A DNA stretch of 64,000 nucleotides from Dissulfurirhabdus thermomarina (GTDB taxonomy: Bacteria; Desulfobacterota; Dissulfuribacteria; Dissulfuribacterales; Dissulfurirhabdaceae): NCBI RefSeq assembly GCF_012979235.1, contig NZ_JAATWC010000011.1, forward strand, positions 1 through 64,000, written 5' to 3'. Below the pieces are notes generated by a model that ran no database searches, had not been told where the DNA came from, and worked only from the letters and a program-made list of their open reading frames with translations. Below, piece after piece: positions 24,271 to 47,186 of the stretch. Position 1 is the stretch's first letter, and every line of letters starts with the position of its first letter. Both the position numbers and the translations under genes were made by a program.

Positions 24271-24315
24271 CGGCGGAGCCGGCAGCTGACGGCGCCTGCG
24301 ACGACACACGAACCG

Positions 24316-24350
24316 GGGCCGCCGATCGCAGTGTCGGCGGCCCTTTTTTT
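24316..24350 (+). terminator. intrinsic terminator inside the operon, after the OmcE-like gene
   Basis: GGGCCGCCGA at 24316-24325 pairs perfectly with TCGGCGGCCC at 24334-24343 (8-nt loop), followed by seven T at 24344-24350. It lies 46 nt after the cytochrome stop and 44 nt before the next gene, with no promoter visible between. Confidence 0.9.
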
Positions 24351-24393
24351 CCGGCCGGCGCGAGGCCGGCCCCACCCAGGAGGACAGGAAGAG

Positions 24394-26135: not shown

Positions 26136-26150
26136 TCCCGGGAGGCACCC

Positions 26151-28115: not shown

Positions 28116-28146
28116 TGCGGCTCGATGCGGCCACGGGAGGCAGGCG

Positions 28147-28686
28147 GTGACCGGGCGGGACCGGGCGGTCTTCGCCCTGCGGCTCGCCGCCCTGGCCCTG
28201 GCCGGGGTGGCCGGCACCGCCGTGGGCCTCTACCTCGCCCTGGACCGGGGGCTCGGCGGGGACTACGCCACGGCCTTCTCGGTGCTGGACGAGGTCACCC
28301 GCAGCCTCCGGCGGCTGCTGGCCGCCTCGGCGGCCGTCCAGGCGGGCCTCCTCGGGGCGGTGTTCCTGCCGGCGGCGATTTGGTGGACGCACCGCGTGGC
28401 CGGGCCGCTCCACCGGTTCCGCGCCCTTCTCCGGGCCCTCGGGCCGGCGGGGTCCGAGTCCCGGCGGCTGGGGCCCTTCCGGGGAAACGACCGCTACCGG
28501 GAGATCCCCCGCCTCTGGAACGCCGGCCTCATCCGGTGGGAGTGGTTCCTCCGGTCCGCGGCCGGGGAGATACGGGCCATCGGGGAAGCCCTCCCGGGCA
28601 CCGGTGTGAACGCCGCGGCGCTCGCGGAGGTCCGGGAGCGCCTCGACCGCCTGGTGAAGGAGATGGAACGCCATGCCGGCCGCTAG
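28147..28686 (+). CDS. two-span membrane protein with HAMP-like segment
   Basis: 179 residues. Span 1 about 10-32 (LRLAALALAGVAGTAVGLYLAL), a short periplasmic loop, span 2 about 58-80, then WWTHRVAGPLHRFRALLRAL, which resembles the start of HAMP linkers (HRIAGPLYR). It ends with a helical stretch. No output domain (kinase, methyl-accepting or cyclase) follows. Such small proteins recur in cytochrome clusters, but their function is unknown to me. GTG start; overlaps the 7-heme gene by 14 nt. A second, similar protein is at 29503. Confidence 0.7.
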   Translation: MTGRDRAVFALRLAALALAGVAGTAVGLYLALDRGLGGDYATAFSVLDEVTRSLRRLLAASAAVQAGLLGAVFLPAAIWWTHRVAGPLHRFRALLRALGPAGSESRRLGPFRGNDRYREIPRLWNAGLIRWEWFLRSAAGEIRAIGEALPGTGVNAAALAEVRERLDRLVKEMERHAGR

Positions 28687-29506
28687 GCGGTGCGCCGTCC
28701 TGCCGCTGGCGGCCCTGGCGGTGCTGGCGGCCTGGACCCTGCGCTGCCGCCTCGAGACCCGGCAAAACCCGCACGAGGGAAGCATGGACTGCCGCACCTG
28801 CCACATCACCCGCCCGGAACCCGGCGGCCCGAACCTCTTCGCCAGGGACATCGAGGCCCTCTGCCGCGGCTGCCACCCCGACGTCCGCCTCGGGCGGACC
28901 CATCCCGTGGCCGTGGCCCCCACCTTTGCGCTGCCGGCGGACCTCCCCCTGGACTGGAAGGGCGAGATGACCTGCACCACCTGCCACTTCATGCACCTCG
29001 ACACCCGGCGGCCGGCGGGCGGAACGGCCGGCGGCCTCCTGCGGCGCGCCACGCGGGGGCGCCGCTTCTGCCTGGAATGCCACGGGCGGGCCGGGGGGCT
29101 TCCGGGGCGCCGGGGCCACAGCCTGGCCGCCGGCAAGGCCCACGAAGCCCGCGGCTTCCGGGTGACCGCCCCGGGTTCACCCTTGGACCGGGCCTCCGCC
29201 GCCTGCCTCACCTGCCACGACGGATCCATCTCGCCCGATACCGGCAACGTCCGGATCGGCAGCGGGATCTGGCGGCACGGGCCGCCTCCGGGGCGGTCCG
29301 TCAGCCACCCGGTGGGGGTCGACTACCGGCCCGGCCGCCGGCGCGCCGCCGCCCTCCGGCCGAGGGCGGCACTCCCGGCCTACATCCGCCTGCCGGGCGG
29401 AAGGGTGGAATGCCTCACCTGCCACGATCTCTATTCCCGGAACGACCACCTGCTCGTGGTCTCCAACGAAAGGAGCCGGCTGTGTCTCACCTGCCACGAG
29501 AAGTGA
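28673..29506 (+). CDS. heptaheme c-type cytochrome
   Basis: 277 residues. An N-terminal hydrophobic segment (about 8-22), either an uncleaved anchor or a signal peptide, then seven CXXCH motifs: CRTCH, CRGCH, CTTCH, CLECH, CLTCH, CLTCH and CLTCH. The end, ERSRLCLTCHEK, resembles the OmcE-like termini encoded in the same operon. Probably a periplasmic or membrane-anchored relay. SD AAGGAG 10 nt before the ATG. The next gene overlaps its stop (GTGA). Confidence 0.85.
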   Translation: MPAARRCAVLPLAALAVLAAWTLRCRLETRQNPHEGSMDCRTCHITRPEPGGPNLFARDIEALCRGCHPDVRLGRTHPVAVAPTFALPADLPLDWKGEMTCTTCHFMHLDTRRPAGGTAGGLLRRATRGRRFCLECHGRAGGLPGRRGHSLAAGKAHEARGFRVTAPGSPLDRASAACLTCHDGSISPDTGNVRIGSGIWRHGPPPGRSVSHPVGVDYRPGRRRAAALRPRAALPAYIRLPGGRVECLTCHDLYSRNDHLLVVSNERSRLCLTCHEK

Positions 29507-30093
29507 CCGCCGCGCCGCCGCCCGCCGGCCGCCGCCGGACCCGCCTTGTGGACCGGCGCCTCCAGCTCTCCCTCGGCCTCGCCCTGGCCGCCGCCTGCGC
29601 GGCCGTGGCCGCCGTCACGGCCACGGCCGGATACCGGGTGCTGAAGGAGGCCCTGGAGGCGTGCCTCTACTGCCCCCACATCAAGGCGGACCGGTGCGGG
29701 GAGATCCTGGGGCCGGCCTTCTTCCGGGTGAACCTCGCCGCGGCGGCGGCCACGGCCGCGGCGGCGGCCGGGACGGCCGTCTGGCACGCCCGCCGCCTGG
29801 CCCGGTCCATGGAGCGCTTCCTGCCCCACCTGCGCGCCTGGAGCCGGTCGGGCCGCCCGGTGCCGGTCCCGGCGCGACCCGGCGACCCCCTCCTCCCGCT
29901 CCTGGACGACTACAATGGGGCCATGGGGCGCCTGCGGGCCCGGGCCGTCCGGGCCCGGCGGGCCCTCCTGGAGGCGCGCCGATACCTCGCCGCGGCGGAG
30001 GCCGCCCGGAACGACCCGGCCGGCGCCGCCCACGCCGCCCGCCGGCGGCTCGCCGCCGCCGCGGCCGCCCTGGAAGGAGACCTGCCGTCATGA
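29503..30093 (+). CDS. second two-span HAMP-like membrane protein
   Basis: 196 residues. Span 1 about 22-45 (LSLGLALAAACAAVAAVTATAG), a periplasmic loop with CLYCPHIKADRCGE (three cysteines, no heme motif), span 2 about 74-92, then a basic amphipathic HAMP-like region and a long helical Ala/Arg-rich tail. Partly like the protein at 28147, with more cysteines outside. GTG start overlapping the upstream stop, and its own stop overlaps the NHL lipoprotein start (ATGA). Confidence 0.65.
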   Translation: MTAAPPPAGRRRTRLVDRRLQLSLGLALAAACAAVAAVTATAGYRVLKEALEACLYCPHIKADRCGEILGPAFFRVNLAAAAATAAAAAGTAVWHARRLARSMERFLPHLRAWSRSGRPVPVPARPGDPLLPLLDDYNGAMGRLRARAVRARRALLEARRYLAAAEAARNDPAGAAHAARRRLAAAAAALEGDLPS

Positions 30094-31139
30094 TGCGACG
30101 ATTCCGCCGATGGGCCCGGCCCCTCTTGATCGCCGCCGTCCTGGCCGCCTGCGGCCCCATGCAGCGGACCGAGGCGCCGCCCGGTGCCGCGGAACTCCTC
30201 TGGCCGGCACCCCCCGCCGCCCCCCGGATCCGATGGGTGGGGGAGATCCGGGACCCCCGGGACGCCGGCGTCCGTCCCGGCCTCTGGGACCGGGTGAAGA
30301 ACTTCCTGCTGGGGGGGGAGAAGGGTCGGATCGCCCGGCCCTACGGGGTCCTCCACGACGAGGCGGACCGGCTCTTCGTGGTGGACGTGGCGGGACGGGC
30401 CGTCCACTGCATGGACCGCGGCCGGGGCCTGGCCGTCACCGTCCCCCGGCGCCGCGAGGACAACCCCCTCGCCAGCCCCATCGGCATCGCGGAAGACGCC
30501 TCCGGGCGGGTCTTCGTGACCGACTCCGAGACGGGCCGCATCTACGTCTTCACCCCGGGCGAATGGGTGCTCCGGCCCTTCACCCCCTTCCGCCTGGGAC
30601 GTCCCACCGGCATCGCCTGCGGCACGGACCGGGGCCTGATCTACGTGGCCGACACCACCGCCCACGAGGTGGTGGCCCTCGGCCCGGACGGGCGGCCCCG
30701 GTTCCGGTTCGGGGGGCGCGGCACGGGCCCCGGGCGGTTCAACTTCCCCACGGACCTCTGGGTGGACCGGGAGGGGCTTATCTACGTGACCGACGCCCTG
30801 AACGCCCGTATCCAGGTCTTCGACCCCGAGGGCCGGTTCCTCCGCCAGATCGGCCGGCCCGGGAAAAGCCCCGGCTGCTTCGCCAAGCCAAAGGGCGTGG
30901 CCGTGGACGGCGAGGGCCACGTTTACGTGGCCGACGCCCTCTTCGACGCGATCCAGGTCTTCGACCGGGAAGGCCGGCTCCTCCTGGTCTTCGGCGAGAG
31001 CGGCCACCGGCCCGGTGAGTTCTGGATGCCCTCGGGGCTCTTCATCGACGCCGAGGACCGCATCTACGTGGCCGACACCTACAACCGGCGGATCCAGGTC
31101 TTCCAGTACCTGGACCGTGACGCCAACGGGTACGAGTGA
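30090..31139 (+). CDS. second NHL-repeat lipoprotein
   Basis: 349 residues. Lipobox VLAACG near residue 20, then six or so NHL blades such as YGVLHDEADRLFVVDVAG, IGIAEDASGRVFVTDSETG, DLWVDREGLIYVTDALNA and VAVDGEGHVYVADALFD. Paralogue of the protein at 24394, and like it adjacent to a cytochrome with OmcE-type motifs. That suggests each OmcE-type protein has its own propeller partner. ATG overlaps the upstream stop. Confidence 0.86.
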   Translation: MMRRFRRWARPLLIAAVLAACGPMQRTEAPPGAAELLWPAPPAAPRIRWVGEIRDPRDAGVRPGLWDRVKNFLLGGEKGRIARPYGVLHDEADRLFVVDVAGRAVHCMDRGRGLAVTVPRRREDNPLASPIGIAEDASGRVFVTDSETGRIYVFTPGEWVLRPFTPFRLGRPTGIACGTDRGLIYVADTTAHEVVALGPDGRPRFRFGGRGTGPGRFNFPTDLWVDREGLIYVTDALNARIQVFDPEGRFLRQIGRPGKSPGCFAKPKGVAVDGEGHVYVADALFDAIQVFDREGRLLLVFGESGHRPGEFWMPSGLFIDAEDRIYVADTYNRRIQVFQYLDRDANGYE

Positions 31140-31140
31140 T

Positions 31141-32802
31141 ATGGGCCCCATGAAACCGGCACCACCGCTCCGCGTGGTCCTCCTCGCCCTCGGGGCGCTT
31201 CTCGCGGCCGCCGGCCCGGCCCCGGGCGGCGACGTGGTCCACAGCCCCCACAACCTCTCCGCCAGCGGCGGCGGCGGCCTCCACGACCTCAAGGCCCCGG
31301 AGGAGAAACGGGTCTGCATCTTCTGCCACACCCCGCACCACGCCACCCACGTCACCCCGCTCTGGAGCCGCGAGCTCTCCACCCGGGTCTACGACCTCTA
31401 CCGGTCCTCCACGCTCAAGGCCGCCCCGGGCCAGCCCACGGGGGCCTCCCGGCTGTGCCTGAGCTGCCACGACGGCACCATCGCCCTGGGCCAGCTGAAC
31501 GGCAGCTACACCATCAGCACCCTGGGGCCCATCCCGCCCGGCCCCACCAACCTGGACGACCCCGAGCACTCCCTCCGGGACGACCACCCCATCTCCTTCG
31601 CCTACACGCCGGACCTCGCCCTGGGAAACGAGCTGGCGGACCCCTCGCTCCTGCCCGCCCGGGGCATCAAGCTGGAAGGCGGCCGCCTCGAGTGCACCGC
31701 CTGCCACGACCCCCACGACAACCGGTACGGCAGATTCCTGGTGATGGATGACACCGACTCCCGCCTCTGCATCCAGTGCCACGAGAAGACCGGATGGGAC
31801 CAGTCCCTCCATCCCCATCCCCAGGACGCCCTGGCGGCGCCGGTCTTCTGCGAGGCCTGCCACGCGCCCCACAACGCCGACCAGCCCGTCCGCCTCCTCC
31901 GGGGCGTGACGGAACAGGCCACGTGCCTGGCCCGGTGCCACAACGGGAGCGGCAACGGCACCGACGTCTCCGGCCTCTTCGGCGCCGCGGTGGCCTCGTC
32001 CCATCCCCTCGACTACGCCGAGGGGATCCACGACGCGGCGGAAGACCCCCTCGCCGCGCCGAAGCACGTGGAATGCGCCGACTGCCACAACGGCCACAGA
32101 GTCAAGGACCAGGCCGCCGTCCCGCCGGCGGTGGAGGGCGCCCTGGTGGGCGTCTCGGGCGTGGACATCACCGGGTCGGTGGTGGCGGAGGCGAGCCGGG
32201 AGTACGAGGTCTGCTTCCGCTGCCACGCCGACAACTCCTTCGTCTCGTCCACCGCGGTGCCCCGGGCCCTCCAGGAGGTGAACGAGCGGCTCCGGTTCGA
32301 CCCCGCCAACCCCTCCTACCACCCGGTGGCCGCCATGGGGCGGGGAACCAACGTGCCGAGCCTCCGGCCGGAGTACACCACCTCCAGCCTCATCTACTGC
32401 ACCGACTGCCACAACAGCGACCAGAGCGCCAAGGCCGGAGGCGCGGGGCCCGACGGGCCCCACGGCTCCAACTTCCGGCATATCCTCATCGCCCGTTACG
32501 AGGCCGACACCTACCCCCTCCCCTACAGCGAGGGCGACTACGCCCTCTGCTTCCGGTGCCACGACCCGGCCGTGCTCCTCGGCCCGGGATCGGCCTTCCC
32601 CAAGCACGGGCTGCACGTGGTGAGCCGGGGCGTCCCCTGCTCGGTCTGCCACGACCCCCACGGCGTCCCGGTGGCCGACGGCGCGACCCCCAGGGCCAAC
32701 GCCCACCTCGTGAACTTCGACACCCGGTTCGTGCCCTTCGGCACCTACGACGCCCAGGCCCGGAGCTGCACCGTGAGCTGCCATGGCACCAAGTCCTACT
32801 GA
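31141..32802 (+). CDS. dodecaheme cytochrome with OmcE-like N-terminal module
   Basis: 553 residues, with a signal peptide. Residues about 35-220 repeat the OmcE-like order: CIFCHTPHH, PLWSREL, YRSSTLKA, CLSCHDGTIA, DDHPISFAY, CTACHDPHDN and CIQCHEK. Residues about 225-553 add eight more motifs: CEACH, CLARCH, CADCH, CFRCH, CTDCH, CFRCH, CSVCH and CTVSCH, two of them CX3CH. Total twelve. It could cap or anchor a filament of the tetraheme protein through its shared head (inference). Starts 1 nt after the NHL stop; ATGs at 31141 and 31150 are both possible. Confidence 0.85.
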   Translation: MGPMKPAPPLRVVLLALGALLAAAGPAPGGDVVHSPHNLSASGGGGLHDLKAPEEKRVCIFCHTPHHATHVTPLWSRELSTRVYDLYRSSTLKAAPGQPTGASRLCLSCHDGTIALGQLNGSYTISTLGPIPPGPTNLDDPEHSLRDDHPISFAYTPDLALGNELADPSLLPARGIKLEGGRLECTACHDPHDNRYGRFLVMDDTDSRLCIQCHEKTGWDQSLHPHPQDALAAPVFCEACHAPHNADQPVRLLRGVTEQATCLARCHNGSGNGTDVSGLFGAAVASSHPLDYAEGIHDAAEDPLAAPKHVECADCHNGHRVKDQAAVPPAVEGALVGVSGVDITGSVVAEASREYEVCFRCHADNSFVSSTAVPRALQEVNERLRFDPANPSYHPVAAMGRGTNVPSLRPEYTTSSLIYCTDCHNSDQSAKAGGAGPDGPHGSNFRHILIARYEADTYPLPYSEGDYALCFRCHDPAVLLGPGSAFPKHGLHVVSRGVPCSVCHDPHGVPVADGATPRANAHLVNFDTRFVPFGTYDAQARSCTVSCHGTKSY

Positions 32803-32925
32803 ACGGACGTCCGCCGGGAGGCCGGAGAAGATGCGAGGCGGAGGGGGCCCGGGCCGCCGCCGTGACGCACAGCCAGAGGCATCGCCGCGACGCCAATCGC
32901 GGCGCCATGAGAAGGAGGTCGTTCC

Positions 32926-34116
32926 ATGAACCGGTTCCTCTCCCTTACCGTCTTCCTGGCCTTGTCCATGGCCGCGCCCGCCACGGGCGCCGCCCCGGCG
33001 GCCGCCCCCCCCGGGAAACCGGCCGCCGGAACCGCCCGTCCCAGGCCCTGGGAACCCCGGGAACGCGTGAAGATCCGGGACAAGAGCGGCTACTGCATCG
33101 AGTGCCACCGGGAGAAGACGCCGGGCCTCTTCCGGTCCTGGGTGGAGGGCCCCCACGCCCGGATCGGCGTCGGCTGCAACGACTGCCACGGGGCCTCCCC
33201 CTCGGACAAGGACGCCTTCCTCCACCAGCAGCGCTTCTACATCACCACGGCGGTCACCCCCTTCGACTGCGCCCGCTGCCACCCGGACGCCATCCGCGAC
33301 TTCTACAACAGCGGCCATGCCGAGGCCCGGATCCGCCTCGAGAAGATGGGGCCGGACGACCCCCGGTACCCGCTCGTGGCCCCTTACCGGGACGGCGGCT
33401 TCGCCGAATGCGCCGGATGCCACGGGGCCAGGGTCCGCCTCGACGAGGACCGGCGACCCGGCCTCGGCACCTGGCCCAACGCCGGGATCGGCCGCCTCAA
33501 CCCGGACGGGAGCCGCGGCAACTGCGCCGCCTGCCACCCGGCGCACCGCTTCGCCGCAGAGGACGCGCGGCGGCCCGAGGCCTGCCTCGGCTGCCACGAC
33601 GGGCCCGACTACCCCGAGGGGGCCATCTACCTCCACTCCCCCCACGGCCGGGTGGCCGGCATGGGCCGGGCCCGGGACGACCTCTCCCGCCCCGGCTTCT
33701 TCTGCGACACCACCCGGTACGAGGGGCCCACCTGCGGCCTCTGCCACTTCAACGGGGCGGGCCGCGACCTCGTCACCCGACACAACCCGGCATGGCGGCT
33801 CACCAGGGACCTCCTCCACCCGGAGGCGCCCGAGAAGGGCCGGCCCGAGGACCTCCGGGGAAACATGGATCGCGTCTGCCAGCAGTGCCACGCGGCCTCC
33901 GTGGTGAAACGCTTCTTCGCCTCGGCCGACGAGAAGCTCGCCCGCTACCAGTCGGAGACCGTCCGCCCCAGGCTCGCCGGGTTCCGGAAACGGCTGAAGC
34001 ATGCCCGCGGGAAGAAGCGACGGCGCCTGCTGGAGGAATACGGCGCCTTCCTCCGGGAGGCGAAGGCCTTCCGCCTCAACCTCTACATGGGGGTCCACGG
34101 CAGGTCCGGGCGCTAG
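32926..34116 (+). CDS. octaheme cytochrome, hydroxylamine-oxidoreductase-like
   Basis: 396 residues, with a signal peptide (about 1-22). Eight CXXCH motifs: CIECH, CNDCH, CARCH, CAGCH, CAACH, CLGCH, CGLCH and CQQCH. The motif spacing, YNSGHAEARI, SPHGRVAGMGRA and TCGLCHFNG with RHNPAWRLT before the eighth heme recall the HAO-type octaheme family found in many anaerobes, where the enzyme may work as a reductase. I see no obvious tyrosine cross-link site, but that needs alignment. The C-terminus is a basic helix (FRKRLKHARGKKRRRLLEEY). Last gene of the operon; the 123-nt gap before it shows no promoter. Confidence 0.72.
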   Translation: MNRFLSLTVFLALSMAAPATGAAPAAAPPGKPAAGTARPRPWEPRERVKIRDKSGYCIECHREKTPGLFRSWVEGPHARIGVGCNDCHGASPSDKDAFLHQQRFYITTAVTPFDCARCHPDAIRDFYNSGHAEARIRLEKMGPDDPRYPLVAPYRDGGFAECAGCHGARVRLDEDRRPGLGTWPNAGIGRLNPDGSRGNCAACHPAHRFAAEDARRPEACLGCHDGPDYPEGAIYLHSPHGRVAGMGRARDDLSRPGFFCDTTRYEGPTCGLCHFNGAGRDLVTRHNPAWRLTRDLLHPEAPEKGRPEDLRGNMDRVCQQCHAASVVKRFFASADEKLARYQSETVRPRLAGFRKRLKHARGKKRRRLLEEYGAFLREAKAFRLNLYMGVHGRSGR

Positions 34117-34574: not shown

Positions 34575-37500
34575 ATGAGGAGGAAGAGAGGAAGGCAGTG
34601 CCTCGTCCCGGCCGGGATGGCGCTCGCCCTGGGCCTGGCGTTCTCCATGCCGCCGCCCGGCGCCGCCATGGCCGCCGTCCCCGAGCACGCGCACATCGTA
34701 CTCCGGGACCACCTCGGAAACCCCATCAGCCCGTCCGCCGCCACCGACAACGCCTTCAGCGTGAAGGGGACCTGCGGCTGCTGCCACGACGGCACCAACG
34801 GGCTCCTCTCGTACGACGAGTTGGAGCGCCACTCCTACCACGCCCAGCTCGCCGCCAACGAGATCCGCGGCTGGAACGCCTGGAACCCGGACTCCCCGGA
34901 CAAGTTCCGGAGCGGTCCCGCCGCCAAGGGGAAGAACTGGGTCCAGAGCCCCGGCCACGTGGGGAAGTGGTGACCGCCGTCGGCGCGCCAGATGGCGAGG
35001 CTGTTCCTGGACGGAGCAGGATCTTCCTACAACGCGACCACGGCCACCTACCTCGACAACCCCTTCACCACCATGACGCCGTACGACTACGGGAGCCTCC
35101 TGGAGTTCCAGCGCCGGGTGGACAACTCCATCCCCGGCCAGATGCGGGACTGCGGTGAATGCCACGCCGGCGGCGGGGCCATGGAGTACGTGCCGGCGCC
35201 CACGCCCGGCGCCCGGGTGCCGCTCCGTGACATCGCCACGGCCGACGTCAACGGGGCCGGCCCCATCACCGCGGCCAACGTGACGGCCTTCAACTACTAC
35301 GTGGACATCTACGACGACGACGGGGACGGCAACCGGTCCGAGGTCCTCTACAACGACTTCACCCAGACCGGGGTCCTCGAGTTCGACTGCCTCCTCTGCC
35401 ACCTGGAGGGTTACGACTGGGAGGCCCGGAAGGAGGCCGTCCGCCACGGCAACTTCGATGCCTCGCGCACCGTGGGGGCCGGGCTGGGGATCCTGGCCGG
35501 CACCAACGGCCGGAGCGTGGTCTACGATCCCTCCCTGGTGGAGGACAACGGGACCGTGCTCAAGCTGGGTCTCTCCGTGGCGGCCAGGATCATGCCCACG
35601 CCGCCCACGGCCAACTGCGCCTCGTGCCACTTCGACGCCCACCAGGTGGACTGGAAGAAGCGCGGCGACGTCTGGGCCGGAAACGCCCTGAACGAGGTGC
35701 ACCTGTCCATCGGCTGCATGGGCTGCCACAAGCGCAAGGACGAGGACTTCTCCAACGTGGGCACCGACGGGGCCCCGTCCAGCACCCTGCTCGGCCAGTG
35801 TGACCCGGCCAAGGGAGACGCCCCGTACAGCTCCCTCTGGAACAAGACCGACAACACCGTGAAGACCTGCGCGGACTGCCACCTCCGGGGCGGCGACGGC
35901 GGCCAGAGCTTCGCCGCGCCGAACCCCGCCAACGCCCACGCGGCGGCGGGGCTCACCGCCAAGGTGTGCCAGGACGGCACCGACGGAGTGGCGGACGCGA
36001 GCCACATCGACATCATCGCCTGCTCGGCCTGCCACGTCCGCAAGCTCAACCTCGGCGGGCCCTTCACCGGGGGTGCCCTGGTGGACGCCACCGGCCCGGA
36101 TGCCGAGGGCCGCCTGGCCGACCACGAGAACCCCTACGTCACCCGCACCATGGAACGCAACGTTGCGGTCTCCTGGTACAAGGGGAGACTCGTGGCCTCC
36201 AACATCCTGACCACCCTCTTCTGGCGGGACAAGAACGACGTGGACTTCGACGCCAACCGCGACGGCCGAGCCGGCGGCATGGACGCCCTCCTGCCCACCC
36301 ACGTCCGGACCATCGACGAGATCTACGGCGTGGGACCGGTCACGGAGGACGGCAACGTCTCCGGTGCCGAGCTCGACCAGCGAATCGCCCAGATCGACGC
36401 CGAGATCGAGGCCCTCACCGGGGTCTCCGGCGCCGCCAAGATCACGCGCCTCTCCTTCATGGCCGTGCCCTTCCGGGTGAACCACAACGTCTCGCCGGCC
36501 TGGGCCGCCTGGGGCGCCGGGGGCTGCGGCGACTGCCACGCCCCGGGGGCCGGCTTCTACAACGGCGCCTACCGCCTCAAGGGCGAGGGGCTCGAGGTGA
36601 GCTTCGGCGGCCAGGTGACGCCCTTCACCAAGGCCAACGCCTTCACCGACCCCACGGACTTCCACCCGAACCTCAAGGACAAGGCCGGGGTCCGCTCCAT
36701 CCCGGTGAAGGCCGCCTTCCAGCAAGGAACCCTCCGCGACGTCGACCGGAGCGAACTCCTCTACGAGAACACCTTCAAGACCCGGAACACCGCCTGGGCG
36801 GACAGCCTCACCAGCGCGCCCATCACCTTCCCCGACGGGACCACGGCCACCACCAAGGGCTGGCTCTTCAAGGTGGAGGCCAAGGACCTCTTCACGGGTG
36901 ACGTGGTGACCCGGAGCAAGATCGTCGGGACCCATGCCGCCAACGTGGACGAGCTGGTGGCGGCCCTCGGCCCGGCCTACACCGACAACCTGCCGGAGTT
37001 CACGGTGACGGCCGACAACGCCACCGGCACCATCACCATCGCGGCGAAGCCCGGCTACCGGGTCCGGCTCCACCCGCAAAGCAGCGCGGGGGCCTTCGGC
37101 ATGGCGGGGGCGGTCTGGACGGACCACCCGGTCACCGCCGTGAACGGCACGGCCTTCGCGGGCCGGGCCGACTGGGTGGCCTACCTCGACCGCCAGAACG
37201 ACCCGGCGGCCGTGGGGATCGGCATCGACCCCGTGGCGGTGATCGCAAGCATCAACGGCATCGTCCCAGATGCCAACGGCACCCCCATCGAGGTGGAAGT
37301 GGGCCAGCCCGTGACACTCGCGGCCGACACCACCGTGAACACCGCCGGCACCTTCACCTACAGCTGGATCTCCAGCGACGCGGCGGGGGAGGTCCTCCCC
37401 GGGGCCACGGTCTCGAAGACCTTCTCCACCGTGGGCACCTGGCTCGTCACCCTCAAGGTCACCGACGAGGAGGGAAAGCTCTCCCAGGTCTCCCAGAAGG

Positions 37501-37808
37501 TGAGCGCGGTGGCGCCGGCACCGGCGGCGGACATCTCCTACGTGGGCACCGCAAGCGGCGTCCAGACCATCCGCTTCGCCAACCTGCCCGCCCACACCAT
37601 GCTCTACATCTTCTGGGGTGACGGGCTGAAGTCACGGGTCTACGACACCACGTCCCCCAAGGACGTGGACCACGACTTCCGCCTCTACGCCAAGTACGAC
37701 AAGGGCGACCACTACGAGTTCAAGGTCACGGCCTACGTCTACGACGGCAGCACCCGGGTGGACGTCAAGCAGGCGGTGATCTCCATACCCAAGGCCGACA
37801 ACCCCTAA
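34575..37808 (+). CDS. selenocysteine-containing octaheme cytochrome 1 with PKD-like domain (reads through TGA)
   Basis: Predicted 1077 residues if TGA 34971-34973 is read as Sec133. The TGA splits two exactly in-frame halves (34575-34970 and 34974-37808). The second half has no ribosome-binding site. N-terminus: good SD, signal peptide, first heme CGCCH (67-71). Around the TGA the frame reads GKW-U-PPSARQ. Then come CGECH, CLLCHLEGYD, CASCH, CMGCH, CADCH, CSACH and CGDCH, giving eight hemes. D359-W-K-K362-R-G resembles the Asp/Lys pair near the active heme of octaheme tetrathionate reductase. From about residue 881 there are two PKD-like beta domains (TFTYSWISSD; FWGDG). It could be called a pseudogene if Sec were ignored, but a paralogue with the same TGA and a Cys homologue argue against that. 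Substrate unknown. Confidence 0.85.
34971..35014 (+). promoter_or_regulatory. selenocysteine TGA with SECIS-like hairpin
   Basis: TGA at 34971-34973, then 16 nt, then a four-base loop AGAT (34990-34993) closed by CGCC/GGCG (34986-34989 with 34994-34997). CCGTC at 34977-34981 can pair with GACGG at 35010-35014 as a lower stem. The distance from the TGA to the loop is identical to that in the second gene and close to the E. coli fdhF SECIS. Pairing by eye; the apical stem is short. Confidence 0.62.
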
Positions 37809-37904: not shown

Positions 37905-38609
37905 TCAGCCCGCCCCCGGCTCCTTCCAGAGGTCCAGGTCGACGAGGCCGATCCGGGCGGCGTAGCGGACGAGCTCCATCTGGCTGTGGACGCCGAGCTT
38001 CCCCATGAGGTTGCTCCGGTGGTTCTCCACGGTCTTCGGCTTGATGTGGAGACGCGCGGCGATCTCCCGGGAGGGGACCCCCTCCACGATGAGCCGCATG
38101 ACCTCCTGCTCGCGGCGGGAGAGGAGGCCGTAGCGGTCGTCCCGCACCCGCGAGGCCCGATCCGGGGCCTCGAGGAGCCGCCCCAGGACCTCCCGGGAGA
38201 CCGCCCCGTCGAGGAAGTGCTCCCCGGCCAGGAGCGCGTCGAGGGCCTGGATGAGCCGTTCGCCCGTGGCCTCCTTCACGATGTAGCCGTGGGCCCCCGC
38301 CCGAAAGGCCGCGGCGATGTACTCGAACCGCCCGTGCATGCTGACCACCAGGATGCGGGCCGAGGGGGCGGCCCGGCGTAGCCCCCCGATGAGCTCGTGG
38401 CCGTTGGCGTCCGGGAGGGCGAGGTCCAGGGTCACGAGGTCGGGACGGAGGGCGGCGGCCAGGTCCAGGGCCTCGCGCCCGGTCCCGGCCTCTCCGGCCA
38501 CCTCGAAGCGCCCGCTCCGCCGGATGAGGGCCTTGAGCCCTTCCCGGAAGAGCGGGTGGTCATCCACCAGGAGGACGGTCGGCTGCTTGGATTCCACGTC
38601 GTTCTCCAC
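37905..38609 (-). CDS. NarL/LuxR-type response regulator
   Basis: 234 residues. Receiver VLLVDDHPLFREGLKALI with phospho-acceptor Asp in LVTLDLALPDANG and Lys in YIVKEATGE. C-terminal LuxR helix-turn-helix LSRREQEVMRLIVEGVPSREIAARLHIKPKTVENHRSNLM. GTG start at 38609, 50 nt inside the kinase gene; a later GTG at 38597 is also possible. With its kinase it sits between two selenocysteine cytochrome genes, convergent to the first and divergent from the second. Confidence 0.92.
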   Translation of the reverse strand: MENDVESKQPTVLLVDDHPLFREGLKALIRRSGRFEVAGEAGTGREALDLAAALRPDLVTLDLALPDANGHELIGGLRRAAPSARILVVSMHGRFEYIAAAFRAGAHGYIVKEATGERLIQALDALLAGEHFLDGAVSREVLGRLLEAPDRASRVRDDRYGLLSRREQEVMRLIVEGVPSREIAARLHIKPKTVENHRSNLMGKLGVHSQMELVRYAARIGLVDLDLWKEPGAG

Positions 38610-40023
38610 CGTTTCTGCGGACGGCCCGGACGGGCTGGAACGGGACCTCCACCGAGACGAGGGTGCCCCCGCCCGGGCGCGAGACCACCCGGAAGCTCCC
38701 CCGGAGAAGATCCACCCGCTCGGCCATCCCGGCGAGCCCCAGGCCGAAGCGGGCCTCCCGGGAAGCGGCCGCCACGTCGAACCCCCGGCCGTCGTCCTTG
38801 ACCTGGAGCCGGAGCACCGGGTGCGTCGCCACCATCCGGACGCTGACCCGGCGGGCCCCCGCGTGCTTGACCACGTTGTGGAGCGCCTCCTGCACGATGC
38901 GGAAGAGGTTGATGGCGGTCTCCTCGTCCACCCGGACCCCGGCCATGCCGGCGGTCTGGAAGTCCACCCGCAGCCCGTGCCGCTCCGAGAGCTTGCCGCA
39001 GTACTCCGCGAGTCCCTCCACCAGGCCGAGTCGCTCCACCGCCGCGGGACGGAGGCCGGAAGAGAGCTCCCGCACCGCCCGGATGGAGCCCTCCACGTCC
39101 TCCCGGAGCCGGGCCGCCTGCTCCCCCAGGGGAGAGGCCGCCCCCCCGAGGTCCTCGTGCAACATGTCGAGGCCGATCTTGACGGCGTTCAGGCGCTGGC
39201 CGAGGTCGTCGTGGAGCTCCCGGGAGAGCCGGCGGCGTTCCGCCTCCTGGAGGGTGAGGAGCCGCCGCGACAGCGCCCGGGCGCGCTCTTCCATGGCCTT
39301 GCGAGCGCTGATGTCCCGGGCCACCACCAGCTTGGCGGGCCCTTCCACGCCCGGCATCCGGACGGGAAGCTCGGCCACCGAGAACCAGGCGCCGCTCCGC
39401 CGGTCGCGGCACTCCCAGTGGAAGGCGCCCCCGGGGGTCAAGGTGCCGGGCGGATGGCAGTCGGGGCAGGGCCGCGTCCGCCCCCAGCAGGCCCGGTAGC
39501 AGGGAGACGCGGCCAGATCCGCCCGGGCGTCCTCCTGCATGCGCCGGTTGGCGAAGGCGATCCGGTAGCCCGGGCCCACCACGTAGACACGGTCCTCCAT
39601 GGCATCGAAGAGGAGGGACAGGGTCCGCTGGGAGGCCGCCATGACGTCGGAGATGCGCTTGCACTCCGTGGCGTCGTGGAGGACCCCCATGACGGCGGCC
39701 CCGCCGCCCATGGCCACGCGGCGGGCCCGCACCTCGATCCAGAAGGGATCCCCGCCCCGCCGGCGGGAAGGCTGGCCCCAGGCGACCTCCTCCGAGACAC
39801 CCGACAGGAGCCTGTCGTGGTTCTCCCGGAAGAAATGGGCGCTCGAGGGGTCCGGGTAGACCTCGCCGAGGAAGTCCCGGCCCGCCAGGCAACGGCCGGG
39901 GTCGAGGCCGAAGACCTGGGAGAAACGCGGATTGGCGAAGAGGAGCCGGCCGTCGCGGACCACGTAGAGGCCGTCGGGAAGGCCGTCCGCCACGGCCCGG
40001 AAGAGCGCGTCCCGTTCCGTCAT
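38560..40023 (-). CDS. cytoplasmic PAS-PAS histidine kinase (NarX-type HisKA_3)
   Basis: 487 residues without membrane spans. PAS 1 about 5-125 (LYVVRDGRLLFANPRFSQVFGLDP). PAS 2 about 135-260, which contains a cysteine cluster SPCYRACWGRTRPCPDCH with a CXXCH at its end. HisKA_3 has ERRRLSRELHDDLGQRLNAV (phospho-acceptor His) and the ATPase domain has FRIVQEALHNVVKHA, DDGRGFD and GLGLAGMAERV. It partners the downstream regulator. The cysteines could sense redox state or bind metal; c-type heme is unlikely in the cytoplasm. ATG start at 40023. Confidence 0.9.
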   Translation of the reverse strand: MTERDALFRAVADGLPDGLYVVRDGRLLFANPRFSQVFGLDPGRCLAGRDFLGEVYPDPSSAHFFRENHDRLLSGVSEEVAWGQPSRRRGGDPFWIEVRARRVAMGGGAAVMGVLHDATECKRISDVMAASQRTLSLLFDAMEDRVYVVGPGYRIAFANRRMQEDARADLAASPCYRACWGRTRPCPDCHPPGTLTPGGAFHWECRDRRSGAWFSVAELPVRMPGVEGPAKLVVARDISARKAMEERARALSRRLLTLQEAERRRLSRELHDDLGQRLNAVKIGLDMLHEDLGGAASPLGEQAARLREDVEGSIRAVRELSSGLRPAAVERLGLVEGLAEYCGKLSERHGLRVDFQTAGMAGVRVDEETAINLFRIVQEALHNVVKHAGARRVSVRMVATHPVLRLQVKDDGRGFDVAAASREARFGLGLAGMAERVDLLRGSFRVVSRPGGGTLVSVEVPFQPVRAVRRNGGERRGIQAADRPPGG

Positions 40024-40138
40024 CTCGCCCCGGCGTCTCCTCACCCACCCCAGGACAGTGTGCCCCAAGGCGGCCCGAAAGTCAAAAGGAATGGATATAT
40101 CAGAAAATTTCGCACATTCCGGCCCCTTTTCCCGCCTT

Positions 40139-40172
40139 GCGGGAAATCCCGCCCACCTGGGCCATATACCCC
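40139..40172. promoter_or_regulatory. paired inverted repeats upstream of selenocysteine cytochrome 2
   Basis: GCGGGAAATCCCGC (40139-40152) and GGGCCATATACCCC (40159-40172), centres 20 bp apart (two helical turns), about 200 bp upstream of the sigma-54-type promoter. GGGCCATAT also occurs at 23225. The 671-nt gap 40024-40694 carries no gene that I can support. Confidence 0.42.
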
Positions 40173-40361
40173 GTGATATGCCGCGCCGCAAACGCGATTC
40201 CACCCGCGAGTCACCCCCATCCTTCCCGGGAACCTGGGGCGGTCACCCCATGAAGCTCCGGGCGGCGGCCTTGCCGGCCGGCGGCGGCCGGCCCCTGGAT
40301 CCCCGCGGGGACGGGGCCTTCGAGCCACCGCCCCCCCGGCGGCCGCCGCCGGGTCTGGGGG

Positions 40362-40378: not shown

Positions 40379-40694
40379 TTTACCCTGGACGGCCCTTTCC
40401 CCCGTGATTCCACCGACGGCCGGGGCCGCAACGCCGCCCTCCCCCCATCTCGGGCGGTGCCGCGGGATCGGCCCAGAGGAGGTGATGCACACCGAGTGAT
40501 GCAGCGTGGCGCCGGGCCGCCGGCAGTCGCGCCCCGGCCGGGACGGCGCGGCCCACGGGGTGGATACGCCCCGCCCGCCCGTCCGCCGTGCAGATCATCC
40601 GCGAGTTTCACCGATGAATGGAGGCCGGCCGGCGGCGCCACCGCGAGCGGAGCGCCTTCCGGCGCCGGGCCTTCGGAGAGAGGAGTCAATGGAT

Positions 40695-43600
40695 ATGGAC
40701 ACGAGACGAGGACACCGGGCCTCGGGCCTGTGGCTCGCCGGGAGCCTCCTCGCGGCCTTCGTGCTGGTGGCCGGGACGGCCTTCGCGGCCCATCCCCCCA
40801 TCCAGCTCAAGACCTACGAGGAGCTCGGCGCCATGGACGTCGGCCCGAACATGCCCCTTCCCTACAGCCCGAAGCAGACCTGCAGCACCAGCGGCTGCCA
40901 CGACGGCACCACCGTGGTGAACGGAAAGGTGCTGCTCAGCTACGGCGACATCGAGGCCCATGCCTTCCACTCGCAGCTTGGGAAAGACGAGTGGAAGGAC
41001 ACCGCCGACGGCCAGTTCGACTTGACCGCCAGCAAGCCCTGGAATCAGACCGGGGCCATGTTCGGCAAGTGGTGACCGCCGTCCCTTCGCCAGGTGGCGA
41101 ATTTCATGGATCAGGATCCGGCGACCCCGGGCGTCCAGGACAAGGTCTACGCGGACAACGCGAGCTTCCTGGGCGCCGTGGACATGGCCGCGTGGGACAT
41201 GGCCATGGCCTGCGGCAGCTGCCACGTCGGCGGCGGGTTCGTCGAGAGTGACCGGAACGGCCAGCGGCTCTCCATCCGGGCGCTCACGGACACCACCATC
41301 AACGCCTACATGAACTACGTCTCCGAGGACTGGGACCCGGCCACGGGCCTTCCCAACTTCAGCGTCAAGCGGGCGCCCTGGACCTACCCGGTGGAGCTCG
41401 ACGGCAACACCAGCACCACGGAATGGATGCCCAACGTCCGCGAGATGGACTGCTTCTTCTGCCACCTCGAGGGCTACAACAACATGATGAGCTCGGTCAT
41501 CGTCCAGATGGGCCTCCTGAACGCCGCCCCCATGGCGGGTTCCGGCCTCATGGACATGGCCACGGGCGGCTACAACACGGCCATGGTGGACGCCAACGGC
41601 ACGCTGCTGCCCTGGGTGCTGGACCGGATCAAGGGCACCCCGCCCAGCGACAACTGCCGCCAGTGCCACATCCCGCAGTCCATGGCGACCCTGGCGGACA
41701 TGATGACCAACTTCCTGGCCGCGGCCCCCATGTCGTACAACCCGGCCAATCCCATGTCGCTCACGGGTCTCGAGATGCCGGCCTACGACTTCGACGCACC
41801 GTGGGTGGACGGGACGGGACCGCTCTACTTCAACGCCAGCGACCAGAACGCCATCAAGAAGGCCATGGTGCCCTTCCCGCGCTCCGACTTCTTCAAGCGG
41901 GGCGACATCTGGGACGACGCGAGCCAGGAGGTCCACATCGGGCTCGGGTGCGCGGGCTGCCACATGGACACCGCCTCCCTGAGCCCCGACATGACCCAGT
42001 GCGACCCGGGGAGAGGCTACGGCCGCCTCTCAGGCGTCCGGCCCTCGTCCAGGAACACCGTCAAGCGGTGTGAGCACTGTCACATCACCGGGAAGAACGC
42101 CGACGGCGTGCCCATCCAGACCTTCGGCGCGCCCGACCCCACCCCCGCCCACAAGGCGGCGGGGTTGACGGCCCTCATCACCACGGCCGTGGGCGTCAAG
42201 GACGACGGAAACGGCACCCCCGTGGAATACACCTTCCCGGGCAGCCACCTCGACGTCATCGACTGCACCGTCTGCCACAACCACAAGAAGAGCATGGCGG
42301 TGCGGGCCCTCGACGCCACCAGCGGCAACCGCTACCCCACCATGATCGGGTTCGATCTCTCCAAGGGCATGCTCGGCATGTTCTCCGCGCCGGATCCGTG
42401 GGGGATGTTCGGCGGCGAGCTCCAGGAATGGACCCCGCTCCGGACCTGGTGGCAGAACGGCGACAAGACGCTGCCCGACGGCTCCATCAACACCGCGTGG
42501 CGCCGGAAGATCTACAACATCAACATGATCACCGCGGTGTTCTGGAACAACCGGGACCCCTCGGTGGACGCCAACGGCGACGGCGCCAACGCCACGCCCA
42601 CCAACTTCGACCCGTGGATCCAGCGTGACCTCAAGGCCGGGATGACCTTCGCGGCCAGCGGCTTCGCGCCCATCCCCGTCGGCTTCGGCAGCGATCCTGC
42701 CTACGCCAGCGCCTACGACGCCAACGGCACCTTCACGGGCGCCTGGGACTGGGTCGGCGTCTACGGCGGCAACGTCATCTTCACCCGCCCGGACCAGATC
42801 GCGGCCTACAAGGCCTACCGGACGAGCCTCGGCGGGAAGCCCTGGGACGGCACCGAGCTCCTCTACTTCGGGGCCCCGTTCCAGGTCACCCACAACATCG
42901 CCGACACCAGCCGCTTCGCCCTGGGCAAGCGGCGGGCCGACGGCAGCTACGGCTGCAGCGACTGCCACGCGCCGGGCGCCGGGTTCTTCGACGGCGACTA
43001 CGACATGACCGGAAACGGCGTCAACGCCAGCAAGGTGGGCGCCAACATGATGATGGAGCCCGCCGCCGACTTCGAGGTGACCGGCTACAAGGGGGACCTC
43101 CGGACCGCGTCGGAGCTCCAGACCAAGGACGGCGCGGGTGCCGATCTCCCCTTCGAGGCCAACGTCACCTGCCCGGACAACGACCCCCGCGGTTGCGTCC
43201 AGACCACCGACATGGACCGCGGCGAGGCCCTCTACCCGCACCTGGCGGAGACCGACCCCGCGGGATTTGCGGCCAAGCGGGCCTACCTCACGGACAACGC
43301 CACCATGACGGCGGCCAACTACGGGATCGGCATCGACCCCGTGGCGGTGATCGCGAGCATCAACGGCATCGTCCCAGATGCCAACGGCACCCCCATCGAG
43401 GTGGAAGTGGGCCAGCCCGTGACACTCGCGGCCGACACCACCGTGAACACCGCCGGCACCTTCACCTACAGCTGGATCTCCAGCGACGCGGCGGGGGAGG
43501 TCCTCCCCGGGGCCACGGTCTCGAAGACCTTCTCCACCGTGGGCACCTGGCTCGTCACCCTCAAGGTCACCGACGAGGAGGGAAAGCTCTCCCAGGTCTC

Positions 43601-43916
43601 CCAGAAGGTGAGCGCGGTGGCGCCGGCACCGGCGGCGGACATCTCCTACGTGGGCACCGCAAGCGGCGTCCAGACCATCCGCTTCGCCAACCTGCCCGCC
43701 CACACCATGCTCTACATCTTCTGGGGTGACGGGCTGAAGTCACGGGTCTACGACACCACGTCCCCCAAGGACGTGGACCACGACTTCCGCCTCTACGCCA
43801 AGTACGACAAGGGCGACCACTACGAGTTCAAGGTCACGGCCTACGTCTACGACGGCAGCACCCGGGTGGACGTCAAGCAGGCGGTGATCTCCATACCCAA
43901 GGCCGACAACCCCTAA
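40695..43916 (+). CDS. selenocysteine-containing octaheme cytochrome 2 with PKD-like domain (reads through TGA)
   Basis: Predicted 1073 residues if TGA 41073-41075 is Sec127. The ATG at 40695 is 9 nt after AGGAG; the ATG at 40689 is too close. Signal peptide, then heme 1 as CX4CH (CSTSGCH), then GKW-U-PPSLRQ, CGSCH, CFFCHLEGYN, CRQCH, CAGCH, CEHCH, CTVCH and CSDCHAPGAGFF. D398-F-F-K401-R-G-D parallels the motif in cytochrome 1. PKD-like region from about residue 877, essentially identical in DNA to cytochrome 1. The reading frame is uninterrupted on both sides of the TGA and no SD precedes the second half. Likely exported; function unknown, reduction of a sulfur or nitrogen oxyanion is a guess from the family. 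Confidence 0.85.
41073..41104 (+). promoter_or_regulatory. selenocysteine TGA with SECIS-like hairpin
   Basis: TGA at 41073-41075, 16 nt, then loop AGGT (41092-41095) closed by TTCGCC (41086-41091) and GGCGAA (41096-41101); A-T closure would leave GG as the tip. A G-rich tip at this distance is what SelB recognises in E. coli fdhF. Better paired than the copy at 34971. Confidence 0.68.
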
Positions 43917-44216: not shown

Positions 44217-47186
44217 ATGGCGAAGAAGATCCTTTTTCTCCTTGTGCTGGCCTGCTCGGTCCTTCCGCCGGCGAGCCGGCTGGCTCTGGCCGACCATCCC
44301 GTCTACGGGGAAGACCCCCGGATGCCCGACCAGATCTACCTCGTCGGCAGGGGCGGCGCCCTGGTGAGCCTCGACGATCCGGCCGACGGGACCTACGACG
44401 GCCTGCCCCCCTACGACCCGGAGGCCACCTGCCGCGGCTGCCACGGTTCCATCTTCAACAACGAGGTGGCCAACTTCCATGCCTGCCTCGGGTGCAACGA
44501 CCTGGTGCTCCCCCGCGGCACCCTCGACCCCGCCCGCCCGTGGATCTTCGGTCCGAGGAAGTTCGGCGGGTGGTGCCCCACCGGTTTCCGGCAGTGGGGC
44601 GACATCACCAAGACCTTCGCCAGCGAGGCGGAGTTCCTGGCCCAGGTGGACATGGGCTTCTACGACTTCATCCTCCAGTGCGGCACCTGCCACGTGGGCG
44701 GCGGCCCGGGGGTGCGCCACCCGCTGACCCTGGCCGAGCACGACGACGTCAACCGGGACCTCTTCTCCCTCACCGTCCAGAACTACTACGTCAAGGACGG
44801 CAACGTGACCCTGGCCAACTGGGTGCAGCTCGGCGGGGGCGGCGCCGGGACCCTGAAGCTCGACTGCCTGGTCTGTCACCTGGAGGGTTACGACATCCTG
44901 GCGAGGAACGAGCAGATCGTCCGGTACGAGAAGTTCAAGAACGCCCCGACGCTGGGGGCGGGCCTGGCCGCCATGGACCCCGCCGCGCCGGACGGCGCCA
45001 GCATGGCCTACGACGCCTTCTACGTGGCGCGCAACGGCAGCAACCACCTCTACCTCGGGCGGAACTTCCTCCAGCGGATCAAGCGCACACCGCCCTCCGC
45101 CAACTGCCTGAACTGCCACATGCCCAGCGTGGTGGAGGGGGAAGACGCGGCGGTCTCCGGTGACGCCTGGAAGCGGGAATTCTTCAACACCGGCACGGTC
45201 CCCAGCGACGACCCCGAGAACCCCGATCCCCTGGCCGCCGCCAACAGGCGCCCGGCCGGCTTCCGCAACGACTTCCTCAAGCGGGGTGCCACCTGGCGCA
45301 CCGACGAGGTGCACAAGTTCATGGAATGCAGCGGCTGCCACCTCCAGACCGCCAAGTTCCAGACCGACAACGCCACGGCCCCCGGCTACCTCCACAGCCC
45401 GGGCAAGGGGTACGACCCCTTGAAGGATCCCATTGGCGGCGAGGGAACGGTCAAGTTCTGCACCGACTGCCACGTCCTCTTCGGAGACCTCGACGGCGAC
45501 GGGGTGAAGGACATCGAGATCTTCGCGCCGCCGGACCCGCGGCCGCGGCACGCGGCGGCGGGGCTCTCCGCGGCCATCATCGGGACCGCCCGCCGGATCG
45601 GGGCCAACGGGCAGGAGGAGACCTTCCGCGGCAGCCACATCGACGTGATCGCCTGCACCGTCTGCCACGTCTGGAAGCAGTACACGGCGGCCCGGGCCTA
45701 CGACTTCAGCACCGGCGGCCGCTTCTACACCTTCGACGGGAACCCGCCGGACGTGGCCGGCGGCCCGGAGACCGTGACCATCGCCTACACCTGGCGCGAG
45801 AACACCCCCGTCCGGGTATTGCCCGACGGCTCGCCGAACCCCATGTGGCGCCGGCAGGTCCATCCCTTCAACTACGTCACCTCCATCTACTGGAACAACA
45901 CGGGCACCAAGGACGCCAACGGCGACGGCTTCCGCTCCGGGGACTCCAACGGCGGCACCACCGTCCTCCTCGACCCCTTCTTCGGCCGGGTGGCCCGCTC
46001 CCACTTCCGTTACGACTTCGTCAACACCGCCAACGACCGGGTGCCCAGCGGGCTGGCGGGGGTCCCCGCCTACGACGAGCGCAGCGAGTGGGCCATGGCC
46101 AACGCGGCCGGCGGGGTCATGTTCACGCGGCCCGGGGAGATCGACGCCTACCAGGCCCTTCTCTCCGGCGAAGACCCCGGCTACGCCCCCCAGCTCCGGC
46201 TGGAGGCGAAGCCCTACCTCCTGGTCCACAACGTGATGCCCATCAAGGGGCCCAACGGGCACGTCCTCGGCAAACCCGTCCGCGACGACGCGGGCAACAT
46301 AGTGGCCTACGGCTGCGGCGACTGCCACGGACCCTCCGGGGTCGTCTACAACGGGGAGGTGAACCTCCTCGGCAAGGGCATCGACATCGCCACCGGCGCG
46401 GAGGCCCCCCTCGCGCTCTCCTGGAGCGATCCGGGCGACGTCTCCGCCGAGGCCGAGTACTGGGATGCGTTCGGCAACCGCCACGTGCTGGACTGCACAT
46501 CGGGCAGCACGCTCCGGAACCCGAGGCGCTACGAGCTGTTGGGATTGTCCGCCACCGAGGCGGCCGGCCTGGACCTAGTCACCGCGGCGGACAACGGGAT
46601 CGGGGTGGACCCCGTGGCGGTGATCGCGAGCATCAACGGCACCGTCCCCGACGGGAGCGGCACCCCCATCACGGTCCGGGTGGGCGAGCCCGTGACGCTC
46701 GCGGCGGACACCAGCGTGAACACCGCCGGCTACATCGACTACGGATGGATCTCCAGCGATGCGGCGGGGGAGGTCCTCCCCGGGGCCACGGTCTCGAAGA
46801 CCTTCTCCACCGTGGGCACCTGGCTCGTCACCCTCAAGGTGACCGACGAGGAGGGAAAGCTCGCCCAGGTCTCCCAGGAGGTGAACGCCGTCAACCTACC
46901 GGCGGCGGACATCTCCTACGTGGGAACCGTAAGCGGCGTCCAGACCATCCGCTTCGCCAACCTTCCGGCCCACACCATGCTCTACATCTTCTGGGGGGAC
47001 GGGCTGAAGTCACGGGTCTACGACACCGTCTCACCCAAGGACGTGGACCACGACTTCCGCCTCTACGCCAAGTACGACAAGGGCGACCACTACGAGTTCA
47101 AGGTCACGGCCTACGTCTACGACGGCAGCACCCGGGTGGACGTCAAGCAGGCGGTGGTCTCCATCCCCAAGGCGGACAACCCCTGA
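44217..47186 (+). CDS. octaheme cytochrome 3, cysteine paralogue of the selenoproteins
   Basis: 989 residues, uninterrupted. Signal peptide, heme 1 CRGCH, a degenerate CLGCN, then GGW-C120-PTGFRQ where the other two have the TGA. Then CGTCHVGGG, CLVCHLEGYD, CLNCH, CSGCH, CTDCH, CTVCH and CGDCH (eight CXXCH in all). D352-F-L-K355-R-G is conserved. PKD-like domains from about residue 794 are related to, but not identical with, the other copies. GGGAGAGGAG precedes the ATG. Motif order (Cys/Sec before heme 2, DxxK after heme 4) fits the octaheme tetrathionate reductase family. This gene fixes the reading of the TGA codons in its neighbours. Confidence 0.9.
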   Translation: MAKKILFLLVLACSVLPPASRLALADHPVYGEDPRMPDQIYLVGRGGALVSLDDPADGTYDGLPPYDPEATCRGCHGSIFNNEVANFHACLGCNDLVLPRGTLDPARPWIFGPRKFGGWCPTGFRQWGDITKTFASEAEFLAQVDMGFYDFILQCGTCHVGGGPGVRHPLTLAEHDDVNRDLFSLTVQNYYVKDGNVTLANWVQLGGGGAGTLKLDCLVCHLEGYDILARNEQIVRYEKFKNAPTLGAGLAAMDPAAPDGASMAYDAFYVARNGSNHLYLGRNFLQRIKRTPPSANCLNCHMPSVVEGEDAAVSGDAWKREFFNTGTVPSDDPENPDPLAAANRRPAGFRNDFLKRGATWRTDEVHKFMECSGCHLQTAKFQTDNATAPGYLHSPGKGYDPLKDPIGGEGTVKFCTDCHVLFGDLDGDGVKDIEIFAPPDPRPRHAAAGLSAAIIGTARRIGANGQEETFRGSHIDVIACTVCHVWKQYTAARAYDFSTGGRFYTFDGNPPDVAGGPETVTIAYTWRENTPVRVLPDGSPNPMWRRQVHPFNYVTSIYWNNTGTKDANGDGFRSGDSNGGTTVLLDPFFGRVARSHFRYDFVNTANDRVPSGLAGVPAYDERSEWAMANAAGGVMFTRPGEIDAYQALLSGEDPGYAPQLRLEAKPYLLVHNVMPIKGPNGHVLGKPVRDDAGNIVAYGCGDCHGPSGVVYNGEVNLLGKGIDIATGAEAPLALSWSDPGDVSAEAEYWDAFGNRHVLDCTSGSTLRNPRRYELLGLSATEAAGLDLVTAADNGIGVDPVAVIASINGTVPDGSGTPITVRVGEPVTLAADTSVNTAGYIDYGWISSDAAGEVLPGATVSKTFSTVGTWLVTLKVTDEEGKLAQVSQEVNAVNLPAADISYVGTVSGVQTIRFANLPAHTMLYIFWGDGLKSRVYDTVSPKDVDHDFRLYAKYDKGDHYEFKVTAYVYDGSTRVDVKQAVVSIPKADNP

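Follow-up and report, generated by a model that had tools for sequence, protein, structure and literature searches.

Sequence evidence for a selenocysteine/cysteine exchange in an octahaem cytochrome family with members in Dissulfurirhabdus thermomarina

Multihaem cytochromes with selenocysteine (Sec) are already on record: ExtKL and, as a database annotation, the octahaem tetrathionate reductase (OTR) model TIGR04315. A 2026 review counts both among Sec families, the latter from GenBank annotation (PMC13188914). ExtKL is the known Sec cytochrome of Geobacter (PMC1914089, PMC5877670); it carries five haems in its N-terminal part, and its C-terminal part is without characterised relatives (PMC1914089). 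In OTR, represented by the Shewanella oneidensis structure PDB 1SP3, the second haem is catalytic and Lys-ligated (PMC11024163), and it is also termed the catalytic haem (PMC4484225). MmcA, the methanogenesis multihaem cytochrome (TIGR04314), belongs to an OTR-related clade and is without haem 2 and its Lys (PMC11024163). In conduits of the OetABI type, a porin is joined by multihaem cytochromes located in the periplasm and at the surface (PMC10553843). In the open-access literature that we searched, which covers no preprints and few subscription journals, we found no Sec octahaem family like the one described here.

We analysed a window of 64,000 nucleotides from Dissulfurirhabdus thermomarina, a member of the Desulfobacterota (contig NZ_JAATWC010000011.1, positions 1 to 64,000). 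It holds three octahaem cytochrome genes on the forward strand, all sharing a C-terminal PKD domain and the site motif G-[KG]-W-[U/C]-P-x-x-x-R-Q. Cytochrome 1 (34575..37808; coding 34575-37805, stop TAA) is a c-type cytochrome with 8 CxxCH motifs, and is 1077 aa long when its sole in-frame TGA (34971..34973) is read as Sec133, in the context GKW-U-PPSARQ (GKW-TGA-CCG-CCG-TCG-GCG-CGC-CAG). Cytochrome 2 (40689..43916; coding 40689-43913, stop TAA) has 7 CxxCH motifs and one CSTSGCH, and is 1075 aa long when its sole in-frame TGA (41073..41075) is read as Sec129, in the context GKW-U-PPSLRQ (GKW-TGA-CCG-CCG-TCC-CTT-CGC-CAG). Gene calling with table 11 breaks both genes at this TGA. Cytochrome 3 (44217..47186; coding 44217-47183) has 8 CxxCH motifs in 989 aa without an internal stop, and its own stop codon is TGA. 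Its site (44571-44600, G-G-W-TGC-CCC-ACC-GGT-TTC-CGG-CAG, preceded by F) carries TGC, Cys120, at 44574..44576, in the context GGW-C-PTGFRQ. In the window genes, the site lies 35 to 60 residues before haem 2.

The earlier note had claimed that Cys120 of cytochrome 3 stands exactly where the other two cytochromes have TGA, and this held. In the full-length alignment, Cys120 shares a column with the TGA of cytochromes 1 and 2. Because this aligner writes U as C, the work was redone with each TGA entered as X: aligning the three haem domains again brings the Cys of cytochrome 3 under the X of the other two. A full alignment placing Cys120 elsewhere would have refuted the claim; this outcome was looked for and did not occur.

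Selenoprotein families are generally recognised by an in-frame UGA at one aligned column, Cys at that column in homologues, a hairpin just downstream, and Sec decoding machinery in the genome. For the first two, a profile of the three window haem domains was searched against 395 genomes of the phylum, and 42 of these had matches at or below E 1e-20; a single scan of named genomes yielded 14 loci. With 5 duplicates dropped and the window's three included, the set comprises 61 distinct homologues. At the column, TGA occurs in 33 of them, Cys in 8, and another residue in 16 (Ser in 9 of these); the remaining 4 do not cover it. Both criteria are met, the UGA in 33/57 covered genes and Cys in 8/57; Trp occurs in only one of the 57 (L039; L numbers denote loci and G numbers genomes). 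In a 65-row alignment, all 33 family TGAs share a single column, those of cytochromes 1 and 2 among them, and cytochrome 3 has its Cys there. Sec genes typically read GKWUPPSARQLA, GKFUPPSFRQLA, GGRWUTPAPVFRQLA or GRYUSAAPNYRQLA around the site, and Cys genes GNWCPTYNRQLPD and GGNWCSPAPLYRQLA. The Cys genes are cytochrome 3, L018, L019, L020, L021, L024, L061, and L080; L025 and L067, wrongly picked by pattern, are excluded from this count. The 16 covered genes with neither Sec nor Cys indicate that the residue is dispensable in some lineages. In other genomes, the Cys paralogues L018-L021, L024, and L061 carry N-terminal multihaem extensions, with 9 to 20 CxxCH in the open frame; cytochrome 3 has no such extension.

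In bacterial selenoproteins, the UGA is followed just downstream by a hairpin with a G within the first two loop positions. All 33 Sec genes meet this criterion: a hairpin follows the TGA, and its AG-N-T loop (AG[T/G/A]T) starts at +16 or +22 nt. In cytochrome 1, the hairpin occupies 34980..35003 (+) with the loop AGAT, and in cytochrome 2, 41082..41105 (+) with the loop AGGT; both loops start 16 nt after the TGA. Across the 33 rows (25 distinct), 86.3% of cells are paired, and in 22 cells both partners have changed. Covariation scores 0.348 in the observed alignment and 0.113 after shuffling, with 0/500 shuffles reaching the observed value; when partners were slid by 1 to 3 columns, pairing fell to at most 64% and covariation to at most 0.152. 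At least 5 uninterrupted pairs adjoin the loop in 26/33 Sec genes, versus 1.0% of 9572 background positions, and none of the 8 Cys genes reaches a stem of even 4 pairs at the hairpin site. Three Sec genes (L070, L072, L076) have an apparent five-base loop and scored as mostly unpaired near it.

A covariance model (R1), built from 20 of the 33 Sec rows with the window rows left out, returns the cytochrome 2 hairpin as its top match in the window (E 0.0032) and that of cytochrome 1 as a weak one (rank 4 of 27 window matches, E 0.27). By folding energy, the single hairpins of cytochromes 1 and 2 are no better than shuffles; a local hairpin in cytochrome 3 does beat shuffles, but it is unlike the family hairpin. 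An Rfam search of the window gave no match. One homologue (L038, in G033) has the Ser codon TCA at the Sec column beside an intact hairpin, in a genome with no SelB over cut-off; it is probably a fossil of Sec.

The decoding machinery is present as well. The D. thermomarina genome holds, over cut-off, selA (603 bits), selB (378 bits), selD, and a tRNA-Sec gene (75 bits), and so meets the general criterion; ARAGORN found nothing on the window itself. Two selD genes exceed the cut-off (C4:99185-100111 and C10:60502-61425; L133 and L134), one with an in-frame TGA. As a discriminator, we rejected the machinery, which is necessary but not telling: it hardly discriminates because tRNA-Sec is found in 340 of the 390 phylum genomes sampled. 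Of the 42 genomes that hold relatives, SelB exceeds its cut-off in 28/28 with the Sec form and 12/14 without, and tRNA-Sec is found in 25/28 and 13/14, respectively.

The history of the exchange was read from a quick tree that takes in 51 rows of the family and 8 of OTR, with the columns around the site omitted. Rows shorter than 300 aa (L052, L053, L054, L079) and six further rows (L025, L023, L060, L059, L062, L024) were kept out. Within the family, the column states call for 6 changes. Two separate parts of the tree have Cys: the cytochrome 3 clade (6 rows, all Cys, support 100) and L080, which sits among Sec rows. Cytochromes 1 and 2 belong to two other clades, each fully supported and both Sec; the cytochrome 2 and cytochrome 3 clades join with a support of 81 only, and L055 forms a long branch beside the outgroup. 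Since the three genes fall in separate well-supported clades, the window holds three deep paralogues, and its Sec/Cys split is an old difference, with cytochrome 3 in the all-Cys clade. The final 558 bases of cytochromes 1 (37248-37805) and 2 (43356-43913) are identical despite the deep divergence of the haem domains; recent gene conversion or an assembly artefact could account for this.

The wider claim, that Sec/Cys exchange marks a selenoprotein family, is thus supported by the column states, the hairpin, the Sec machinery, and the tree, which was the check proposed in the earlier note. Two refinements are needed: the difference within the window is old and separates deep paralogues, and in some lineages the column may also be Ser or another residue. 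On sequence evidence, and without expression or selenium data, we conclude that the Sec/Cys exchange is real and that these proteins form a selenoprotein family outside the models tested.

What kind of protein carries the site? The three window cytochromes stay below the cut-off of every NCBIfam model, as does the haem part of eight relatives. TIGR04315 scores 25.1 bits for cytochrome 1, against a cut-off of 375, and gives nothing for cytochromes 2 and 3. OTR (1SP3) was the only PDB match (E 0.0033), and a PDB sequence search with cytochrome 2 found none. In a profile alignment with 29 OTR sequences from the phylum, the family matches at E 4.2e-19 and haems 2 to 8 line up in register, which meets the criterion of eight-haem OTR order. 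The controls fall well short of this: 4.1e-12 for a single OTR sequence, 1.6e-5 for the same one scrambled around its haems, and no better than 1e-5 for four other cytochromes of the window. The Lys of the OTR motif VKHG (Lys153 in 1SP3 numbering), which follows haem 4, is aligned with the Lys of a family KRG motif: Lys362 (KRGD, 35658..35660, +) in cytochrome 1, Lys403 (KRGD, 41895..41897, +) in cytochrome 2, and Lys355 (KRGA, 45279..45281, +) in cytochrome 3. Of 53 rows, 91% retain this Lys and 98% the haem-2 cysteines; five distal histidines are invariant where aligned, and several line up with OTR. The family consists of octahaem cytochromes related to OTR, with a Lys matched to the ligand of OTR haem 2; ligation itself and reductase activity are inferred. 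The window cytochromes differ from OTR in being larger, in their PKD domain, and in scores far below the TIGR04315 cut-off.

OTR has a Sec/Cys exchange of its own. Among 30 OTR loci from the phylum (L090-L119), 29 were readable (L104, whose ORF was mis-picked, is excluded); the motif NN/NS-[FY]-[U/C], immediately ahead of haem 2, carries TGA in 14 of them and Cys in 15. An alignment of the Cys form to 1SP3 along its whole length identifies the residue as Cys64. OTR and the window family both have the site between haems 1 and 2, but it is 10 residues before haem 2 in OTR versus 35 to 60 here, and in another sequence context. In the 65-row alignment, MAFFT did not place the OTR Sec in the family Sec column, and the local profile alignment begins after that column, so it is not established that the family Sec and OTR Cys64 occupy one position. 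By analogy, the OTR exchange favours a role at haem 2 for the family Sec/Cys; it does not prove positional identity. AlphaFold models were of low confidence (pLDDT 39.8 with cytochrome 1 as first row and 14 sequences, and 35.6 with L051 and 12 sequences); without a usable model, closeness of the Sec/Cys to haem 2 is inference only. Against the MmcA model TIGR04314 (cut-off 250), cytochrome 1 scores 36.6 bits and cytochromes 2 and 3 give no score; haem 2 and its Lys, lost in MmcA, are kept in the window family.

The three genes stand at the end of a larger cluster. Upstream, on the forward strand (21624..34116), lie genes for a 13-haem, a 4-haem, an NHL-repeat, a 3-haem, a porin, a haem, and a propeller-like protein, and for two more multihaem proteins. 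The porin (26151..28115, +) is putative: it rests on sequence character only, without a Pfam or NCBIfam match, and its neighbours are conserved in other genomes. The order is 4-haem, NHL, 3- or 5-haem, porin, NHL-like, multihaem, Sec cytochrome, and Cys cytochrome. In the 12 neighbourhoods read, it is whole in G216 and partial in G008, G126, and G082; G362 and G145 keep one multihaem neighbour, and none of it was seen in G301, a second G008 stretch (L123), or the distant relatives L128-L131. Part of the relatives share a conserved cluster of cytochromes and a putative porin with octahaem genes at its end. A conduit with the octahaem proteins outside the cell is the natural reading, inferred without a predictor test of export or location. 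The likeness to OetABI-type systems was likewise drawn without a homology test, and the window cluster differs from them in its NHL-repeat proteins and in the Sec octahaem cytochromes at its end.

Two neighbours deserve separate mention. The eight-haem protein next to cytochrome 1 (32926-34113) matches PF13447 and has a sub-threshold hydrazine dehydrogenase match (55 vs 900 bits). In G216 and G145, homologous proteins are encoded next to Sec cytochromes. Translations of the reverse strand between cytochromes 1 and 2 (37905..40203) give a LuxR-type response regulator and a histidine kinase; a homologous pair is found near the Sec cytochromes of G126 and G145.

We propose an explanation that we hold to be very probable as a whole; its decoding and Cys-lineage steps rest on sequence evidence, and the OTR-like build, the role at haem 2, and the conduit are inferred. 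The family is one of octahaem c-type cytochromes, inferred to be exported, with one Sec/Cys site. On the sequence evidence, SelB and tRNA-Sec decode the UGA of cytochromes 1 and 2 as Sec with the help of the in-frame hairpin just downstream; cytochrome 3 comes from an old sister lineage with Cys instead of Sec and no hairpin. The protein would be built like OTR, with a catalytic, Lys-ligated haem 2, and a selenolate or thiolate at the residue between haems 1 and 2 may be the reactive group within, or close to, the haem-2 pocket. The neighbouring porin-cytochrome conduit would send electrons to it along the haem chain to reduce an unidentified extracellular acceptor, with oxidised sulfur, selenium, or nitrogen compounds as the likeliest candidates.

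The rival that survives best accepts the Sec/Cys site and denies it a catalytic part at the haem: the residue could be a redox switch, a metal site or structural, and the proteins mere electron carriers. This remains possible. MmcA, which is related to OTR, serves as an electron conduit and has no catalytic haem (PMC11024163), 16 of the 57 covered genes manage with neither residue, and no usable structure is at hand. Against it, the conserved Lys and haem-2 cysteines are the very features that MmcA has lost, and OTR shows its own exchange before haem 2.

A second rival takes the TGAs as true stops or signs of decay, with cytochromes 1 and 2 as pseudogenes, products of sequencing error, or genes restarted downstream. 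The table 11 split of both genes speaks for it, as do ATG or GTG codons downstream at 34992 and 41094. We consider it very improbable: the same single TGA recurs at the same column in 33 genes and is followed by a covarying hairpin, haem motifs are intact on both sides of it, and a downstream start would drop the signal peptide and haem 1.

A third rival, reading of the TGA as tryptophan or some other recoding without Sec, is as good as ruled out: TGG precedes the TGA in the window genes, but selA, selB, selD, and tRNA-Sec are in the genome, cytochrome 3 ends at a TGA, Cys replaces the TGA in two tree places, Trp is nearly absent from the column, and the SECIS-like hairpin follows every one of the 33 TGAs. 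Identity with ExtKL (NF040886, cyt_C_like_Sec), likewise a multihaem cytochrome with Sec and from related bacteria, can be set aside just as firmly: NF040886 (cut-off 250 bits) is a separate family model that matches none of the three cytochromes and, with the threshold relaxed to E 1, still finds nothing on the contig of the window, and ExtKL has five N-terminal haems and a C-terminal part without characterised relatives.

The preferred explanation, hairpin-guided Sec in an OTR-related octahaem family, has a bolder form, which we put forward tentatively and think rather more apt to fail than to hold. In it, cytochromes 1 and 2 would be cell-surface selenoenzymes wired to respiration, with Sec beside or even ligating a Lys-ligated haem at the outer end of the conduit, and with a Cys paralogue as partner that serves either the same acceptor or a different one. 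Since the Sec/Cys choice recurs in OTR relatives, selenium-assisted haem reduction would, if this form were true, be a general design of the cytochrome class. The Sec octahaem family described here lies outside the ExtKL and TIGR04315 models tested and is spread across many families of the phylum. The natural pairing of Sec and Cys octahaem cytochromes side by side makes the contribution of selenium at a haem enzyme open to test.
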